This document shows, in pieces, positions 8,874 through 8,999 of a stretch of 64,000 nucleotides of DNA (position 1 is the stretch's first letter; each line of letters opens with the position of its first letter). This DNA comes from Acidicapsa dinghuensis. Its GTDB lineage: Bacteria > Acidobacteriota > Terriglobia > Terriglobales > Acidobacteriaceae. Location: assembly GCF_025685685.1 (NCBI RefSeq), contig NZ_JAGSYH010000010.1:62001-126000 (forward strand), written 5' to 3'. A model generated the notes under the pieces. The model was not told where the DNA came from and did no database searches. It saw only the letters and a program-made list of their open reading frames with translations. Position numbers and translations under genes: made by a program.

Positions 8874-8999
8874 TGGCCGGGGACGATGCGCAATCCTTGT
8901 CTGACGTTGCGCAATAAATGAGCGCCGCTGCGCAATCGCCGACGGACTATGCGCAATCGGCGTCGTGCAGTGTGCAATCTTTGAGCGATGATGCGCAAT
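8874..8999. repeat. Six tandem 21-bp units each ending in TGCGCAAT, upstream of mreB
   Basis: TGCGCAAT (TGTGCAAT in the fifth copy) begins at 8887, 8908, 8929, 8950, 8971 and 8992, exactly 21 bp apart each time. The 13 bp between boxes are degenerate, with a weak GACGA/GAGCG tendency. The core TGCGCA is self-complementary. Twenty-one bp is two helical turns, so all boxes face the same side of the DNA. The array fills the gap between the M50 gene and mreB. It may be a regulator-binding array or a decayed minisatellite. Confidence 0.85.

Follow-up and report, generated by a model that had tools for sequence, protein, structure and literature searches.

Six boxes at a 21-bp period upstream of mreB in Acidicapsa dinghuensis: a possible member of a family of interspersed, polar arrays of putative protein-binding sites

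Upstream of mreB, a 64,000-nucleotide stretch of the Acidicapsa dinghuensis genome (here called the window; contig NZ_JAGSYH010000010.1, positions 62,001 to 126,000) carries a row of regularly spaced short boxes, which raises the question whether this row belongs to the control of mreB or to something of a more general nature. The boxes start at 8887, 8908, 8929, 8950, 8971 and 8992 and thus keep an exact 21-bp period. All are read on the plus strand, and box 1 (8887..8894), box 2 (8908..8915), box 3 (8929..8936), box 4 (8950..8957) and box 6 (8992..8999) have the sequence TGCGCAAT, while box 5 (8971..8978) is TGTGCAAT, with one mismatch. A first-pass annotation of this DNA had described six identical boxes; its exact period is correct, but one box in six deviates. 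The whole element of six 21-bp units spans 8884..9004 on the plus strand and matches positions 1-121 of the model R1 described below with 89.1 bits. It is located between a gene for an M50-type peptidase (8331..8831, plus strand, start codon provisional; Pfam PF02163, E 1.1e-15), whose stop codon precedes box 1 by 55 bp, and mreB itself (9106..10170, plus strand; Pfam MreB_Mbl, E 7.8e-147), whose start follows the end of the last box by 106 bp. Taken alone, TGCGCAAT occurs 6 times in the window versus 4.37 expected and so shows no enrichment there. A search with R1 detected no second array in the window, nor a new one elsewhere when 40 more 20-kb samples of the genome were scanned.

The same annotation had considered an activator or repressor array for the mreB operon plausible, and had suggested an alignment of mreB upstream regions from related genomes. 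In such an alignment the array is absent from all eight congeneric stretches (that of G001 is short, as it ends at the contig end), and the mreB-proximal stretch is retained. This stretch (GGCCGTACAATA...GAGAGTTTATTCAAG; 9040..9105, plus strand), a putative promoter, has a visible counterpart in the eight array-less relatives, in all of which GGCMKTACAAT and then GAGAGT can be recognized by eye near mreB; a scan of the mreB-proximal stretch for the sigma-70 consensus and for terminators gave no match. As eight of eight relatives lack the array and yet possess a similar mreB-proximal stretch, the array is not part of a conserved mreB control. The annotation had itself named identical arrays scattered over unrelated loci as a result that would refute its proposal, and arrays with the same boxes and different spacers are indeed found at about 14 unrelated loci of this genome. 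Together with the eight array-less relatives, these same-box arrays speak against an operator array that is dedicated to mreB.

The spacing of the boxes in the genome is not a chance alignment. Exact pairs of the form TGCGCAAT-N13-TGCGCAAT occur 25 times, compared to none for a reversed control, and with up to two mismatches 76 spaced pairs stand against one for the control, although the 76 include readings of arrays on the opposite strand and some scattered chance-like pairs. Grouping of the pairs with two or fewer mismatches resulted in 13 clear arrays on eight contigs; with two weaker ones found by R1 the total is about 15. R1, a sequence-only model built from the 13 clear arrays, recovers all 13 at E 6e-22 or better in a search of the genome. 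The two weaker arrays (C12:347-454 and C1:152082-152186), which are situated near contig ends and have five and four units with GGTGCAAT- or AGTGCAAT-like boxes, are found at E values of about 3e-13. All 15 arrays therefore stand at E 4e-13 or better, and the next match (E 0.015) reads one of the known arrays from its opposite strand. The number of units is nearly constant: 11 of the 13 clear arrays consist of six units in exact 21-bp register, and the remaining two (L035 and L043) of five recognisable units. End boxes are degenerate in L034, L037, L039 and L040, and the L043 array extends into the end of a PTPS/queD-like gene.

Conservation within the unit is uneven. In a table of 65 interior units, which holds a few spurious end units from L036 and L037 that were removed for the later unit statistics, the information is concentrated in the box (positions 1-8) and in G13 and C19, each present in 61 of the 65, and the next-best positions are A/G18, Y12 and G/A20. 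In the cleaned set, which comprises the first five units of each of the 13 arrays, every one of the 65 units has A6, A7 and T8. The earlier description of constant spacing with varied spacers is confirmed, but the spacers are not wholly free, given the conservation of G13 and C19. Spacer identity between units amounts to 6.36 of 13 positions, which is the value predicted by column composition; within arrays it is 6.15 and between neighbours 6.00, as compared to 6.36 after shuffling (p 0.07, in the opposite direction). Whole arrays have on average 31.7 of 65 spacer positions in common, and the best pair 44. Since units of one array do not resemble each other more closely than shuffled units do, they did not arise by recent tandem duplication, and the arrays are neither recent copies of one another nor recently expanded tandem repeats. 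A freshly expanded minisatellite is unlikely on the same grounds, as neighbouring units are no closer than units from different arrays. A memory of a common ancestral array was rejected, since unit number has an effect at just two of the 21 positions, 9 (p 0.003) and 3 (p 0.016), and this is borderline after correction.

The unit can also be read as a heptapeptide. On the plus strand this is CAIxVxR, with stops in 6 of the 13 arrays, and on the minus strand IAHRxTx, in a frame that is open in 12 of the 13. The array at mreB has two plus-frame stops, which bears out the stop codon that had been mentioned for this strand. A minus-strand open frame at 8868-9395 crosses the same array and reads PIAHRxTx-like heptapeptides; the open minus frame through the array is probably a by-product of the unit sequence. 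Coding was set aside as an explanation for the family, as the arrays lie in gaps and few of the minus-frame codons could become stops.

For the placement of the arrays we relied on our own scoring of open reading frames and on Pfam names for ten genes. Of the 13 clear arrays, eight are flanked by tandem genes and four by convergent genes, and one, that at uvrA (L042), is in a divergent gap; in 11 of the 13 a stop codon on either strand is located at most 55 bp away, the exceptions being L037 and L042. The arrays are directed along whichever strand is locally richer in G, independently of how the neighbouring genes run. In stretches of 20 kb around each of the 13 arrays (16 kb at L042 and L045), GC skew read along the array is positive in 12 cases (mean 0.071; sign-flip p 0.001), and the skew outside called genes is positive at all 13; the coding share on the array strand ranges from 0.08 to 1.00 across these loci. 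Both contig-end arrays also have positive skew in array orientation (3.5-kb stretches), which brings the loci in A. dinghuensis at which orientation matches local GC skew to 14 of 15. In the two congeners with arrays, positive skew in array orientation was found at 8 of 10 loci in G001 and at 8 of 8 in G011 (6-kb stretches), these loci being those fetched from 15 and 10 listed matches, some with two matches per array. If each orthologous locus is counted once, with an orthologous group being represented by the highest genome in the order G000, G001, G011, then 23 of 25 loci in the three species follow the skew (one-sided binomial about 1e-5), where the 3.5- and 6-kb stretches used for 20 loci are short for skew estimation. 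The exceptions are the divergent array L042 as well as L083 and L087 in G001, and the skew is near zero at several loci, for example 0.005 at L038 and 0.003 at L093. Along the contigs of the draft genome, GC skew flips sign in blocks, as seen in the 40 further 20-kb samples. The plus-strand array C10:755213 lies inside a positive block (630 and 745 kb) that is flanked by negative blocks, and the sample beside the plus-strand array C11:351098 is already negative. We infer that this pattern reflects replication-strand polarity with later inversions, the leading strand being read from GC skew.

The distribution of the arrays among relatives is narrow. An array with exact boxes was found in none of 40 relatives, two of which have one chance-like pair each, and a search with R1 over 60 relatives gave matches better than E 1e-4 only in the congeners G001 and G011, followed by matches in G037 (E 6.5e-4) and G033 (E 7e-4). 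Arrays at E 1e-4 or better are detected in 3 of the 15 genomes available for the genus, 8 of which are at least 90% complete. A second model, R2, which was built from 12 looser arrays, added no further genome at the E 1e-4 level over 40 relatives, and its weak matches (E 9e-4 to 7e-3) are in G016, G029, G031 and G038. For only three of the 13 clear arrays was a counterpart detected beside the same genes in G001 or G011, namely those at a cys/met enzyme (L038 = L087), at ftsY (L040 = L088) and at uvrA (L042 = L082 = L093). In nine aligned orthologous pairs the flanks are conserved, the GCAAT boxes are retained in many units, the spacers have drifted and G011 shows deletions; as the aligner favours boxes, their retention at orthologous loci serves as supporting evidence only. 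No array was detected by the model in 40 orthologous gaps from eight relatives, which cover 9 of the 13 loci, and a 12.6-bit match at L225 is not array-like. Ten protein pieces from the vicinity of the G001 and G011 arrays, some of them from genes several hundred bases off, gave 15 matches in A. dinghuensis, none of them closer than 56 kb to an array on its contig, and only three of the 15 exceed 75% identity, so that orthology of the rest is uncertain. Because the orthologous gaps are array-less and the neighbours of the G001 and G011 arrays are far from arrays here, it appears that the loci turn over. The boxes of G001 are looser (IC 0.62-1.08 at positions 1-3; 34 units from 8 loci) and the arrays of G011 contain indels, which suggests decay in those genomes. 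With counterparts at 3 of 13 loci only and no detected array in 12 of the 15 genus genomes, the role of the arrays would have to be dispensable or replaceable. Other repeats were observed beside the same genes in relatives: runs of GGGACTAGGGACCAG in L226 (the dnaJ gap of G005), and copies of GTCATTCCCGAAGGGAATCTGC in L220 and L234 (G003) and in L221 (G005).

What the arrays are for can be approached from the features that they keep. Boxes and spacing are held although the arrays are neither recent copies nor recent expansions, and this points to selection for binding; the conservation of boxes over spacers and the fixed spacing make it likely, on sequence grounds, that a protein binds. The earlier idea of protein sites on one helix face fits with conserved boxes, varied spacers and exact two-turn spacing in many arrays, but its mreB-specific role is not supported. 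We tentatively put forward, with slightly less than even confidence, that the array at mreB is one of a lineage-specific family of interspersed, polar arrays at which a protein would bind at the DNA level. Each array would provide about six sites spaced two helical turns (21 bp) apart, in which a GCAAT core is followed by YG at unit positions 12-13 and C at 19, and a hypothetical chromosomal DNA-binding protein would sit on all of these sites in phase, on one helix face. The polarity of the array may then serve something that travels along or reads the chromosome, be it in replication, segregation or chromosome packing; for the first two this link is speculative. The arrays thus look like chromosome-wide landing strips for a protein and not like an mreB switch. 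That they constitute a class of polar chromosome element, with about six two-turn-spaced sites and about one array per 400 kb, read directionally by a putative protein through which chromosome organisation would be coupled to the direction of replication within a single lineage of Acidobacteriota, is a more far-reaching proposal that we consider rather unlikely. The family offers features by which a function could be tested: a near-fixed number of sites, exact helical phasing, boxes that outlast spacers, and an orientation tied to skew and not to transcription. If a protein binds, the arrays would offer an entry to chromosome organisation in Acidobacteriota, and if none binds, the skew-tied orientation would indicate a replication-coupled way of making repeats.

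Several other explanations have to be weighed against such a family of binding arrays. Promoter control, either by an operator array for the mreB operon or by a promoter regulon under one regulator, would agree with the helical phasing of the boxes and with the 106 bp between the last box and the mreB start, but we hold it to be highly improbable, because just 1 of 13 arrays is in a divergent gap, 4 of 13 lie between convergent genes where no promoter is expected, and the eight relatives have no array at mreB. Moreover, the Pfam-named neighbours (ftsY, uvrA, dnaG, dnaJ, a coaBC-like flavoprotein, a PTPS/queD-like gene, glutamyl-tRNA reductase and a cys/met enzyme) have no evident theme in common. 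We see very little chance also for a transcribed RNA or 3'-UTR element with tandem hairpins. Palindromic boxes can pair, the arrays are near stop codons, and the reverse strand of L045 out-folds most shuffles with a z of -2.43, but this is one of eight strands tested, and the other seven (four arrays were tested on both strands) range from z +0.43 to -1.66. In addition, adjacent units pair no better than units drawn from different arrays, the array takes either orientation relative to the gene with the nearest stop, and 14 loci gave no Rfam match at gathering thresholds. As the consensus fold derives largely from the palindromic boxes and pairing between units is unsupported, a structured RNA was rejected.

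An origin from simple repeats is a further alternative, in which the 21-bp unit represents three mutated 7-bp repeats (TNNGYRA), similar to the heptamer arrays of other Acidobacteriota, and would be functionless now. The unit has its YR steps at 5/6, 12/13 and 19/20, at intervals of 7 bp; the better-conserved spacer positions include YG 12-13 and CR 19-20, which are at +7 and +14 from C5A6; the lag-7 autocorrelation of the unit matrix has a p of 0.0185; and among 297 genomes of the phylum 37 have GCRAT heptamer arrays, a few of these in the same family. However, the lag was not predicted beforehand, with p 0.11 over lags 1-10, and a backwards control pattern was found in 15 of 297 genomes, so that various kinds of 7-bp repeat are common. 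Decay by itself would not leave every third heptamer almost intact across 13 arrays, nor would it fix the unit number near six or prevent indels, and we think that this origin is quite unlikely. Four GCRAT motifs at 7-bp spacing had no match in the A. dinghuensis genome, and in a test of 20 heptamer loci fetched out of many found in G131, G178 and G330, no clear skew bias was seen (positive at 6 of 9 loci in G131 and G178 together and at 6 of 11 in G330, with small skews). Heptamer arrays (TCCGCAA, TTAGCRA, TTTGCRA etc.) often have a genome-typical variant, as in G068, G314, G324, G346 and others, and in some genomes two of them face each other within about 60-100 bp, for example at G068:C4:2273-2403. 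It is likewise rather unlikely, in our view, that the arrays are a small mobile or copied repeat of MITE- or REP-like type without host function, which would owe its orientation to insertion into single-stranded DNA at the replication fork, as IS200/IS605-type elements do. REP-like repeats are typically found near gene ends, as are the arrays, whose loci differ between species and whose orientation follows the skew. IS608 and ISDra2 are reported to target the lagging strand (PMC6006769). Genes for Y1-type transposases, with 23 matches in 6 of 9 genomes searched, are present in all three array genomes, yet also in G005, G010 and G014, where no arrays were detected, and G005 has a relative of the G000 transposase with 72% identity and no detected array. 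Against a mobile repeat also speak the lack of any recent-copy pair (the spacer identity between arrays given above, mean 31.7/65 and best 44), the absence of conserved ends or flanks, none being seen past about 3 bp, and the absence of array matches in 12 stretches around Y1_Tnp genes (12 of the 23 matches), several of which are, by eye, flanked by other palindromes. REP/BIME elements with a RAYT were rejected, as no array stands beside a Y1-type transposase gene in the 12 of 23 Y1_Tnp matches examined. At L298, L302, L307 and other Y1_Tnp loci, RAYT-like genes are flanked by GC-rich palindromes (CCCACGCTGAAGCGCGGGGCTA, GCGCCTACGGCGC) that are unrelated to the arrays.

Among repeats in general, the putative binding arrays are a variant form of interspersed intergenic direct-repeat arrays, and their skew-tied orientation is the most unusual feature compared to known repeats; a description of these arrays was not found among the papers listed in literature searches, which were mostly outside subscription journals. 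In CRISPR arrays the repeats are long and almost identical and are separated by unique spacers of at least about 26 bp, which does not agree with the 8-bp box and the 13-bp semi-conserved spacers. KOPS and other chromosome-reading motifs are polar, and their orientation follows the replication strand skew. KOPS are, however, single 8-mers in large numbers, whereas here about 15 arrays of about six sites are found; these would be polar in a similar way in so far as their orientation follows GC skew, which it does at 23 of 25 distinct loci.

The STAR elements of Staphylococcus are interspersed intergenic direct repeats with a conserved motif and locus-specific spacers, for which no function was described in 2012 (PMC3532100). 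With these the arrays have in common a short direct-repeat motif, several intergenic loci, locus-distinct spacers and few units per locus, and in both cases loci differ per species, with three array loci being shared here. The STAR motif is 14 bp long and GC-rich, with at least 40 bp between motifs and a variable unit number (PMC3532100), in contrast to the 8-bp box and 13-bp spacer of the arrays, which also differ by their two-turn period, their mostly six units and the way in which their orientation goes with GC skew. No sequence relation was seen, and the 8 + 13 bp unit does not agree with STAR elements proper. The heptamers GGGAATC and GGGGA(T/C)T of Xanthomonas and Nostoc form dispersed intergenic tandem arrays, many of them at most 50 bp from a gene end, and are rarer between divergent genes than controls; the Xanthomonas repeats are reported to have no leading/lagging preference (PMC4692102). 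Both kinds of array are dispersed, intergenic, near gene ends and few in divergent gaps, but those are 7-bp G-quadruplex repeats, and the arrays described here are without such G runs and show an orientation bias. In Beggiatoaceae, Cyanobacteria and Bacteroidetes, direct repeats of the heptamer TAACTGA form intergenic sets scattered by species-specific routes (PMC4679880). They resemble the arrays as scattered intergenic direct-repeat sets; unlike the arrays, they are reported to stand, in the main species, mostly a short way before start codons, with a 7-bp unit without spacers (PMC4679880).

Arrays of the same 21-bp period, such as CCGGCAATTGTCGTGTGACAA, were found in three Planctomycetaceae MAG record sets, at nine JAITQV loci (L097, L099, L125, L136, L138, L140, L141, L160 and L171) and at the loci L108, L119 and L144. 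They are of the CCGGCAATTGTCGTGTGACAA or TTGGCAATTGTTGTTCTACAA type with palindromic spacers, have conserved ends in JAITQV, and are dispersed in at least one genome. GCAAT and YGT..GAC stand at matching places in both groups, where the search pattern had prescribed GCAAT, YG and C19, and T14, G17, A18 and A21, which it had not prescribed, hold in the JAITQV arrays. The Planctomycetaceae arrays differ by having about 5 to 12 near-identical units and no skew bias (7 of 12 loci positive), and a kinship to the arrays of A. dinghuensis is putative. Long 21-bp direct repeats around GCAAT (GGAGCAATCACCGATCAGCCC type), with at least 14 units and possibly coding, were also observed on the viral contigs L196 and L189.
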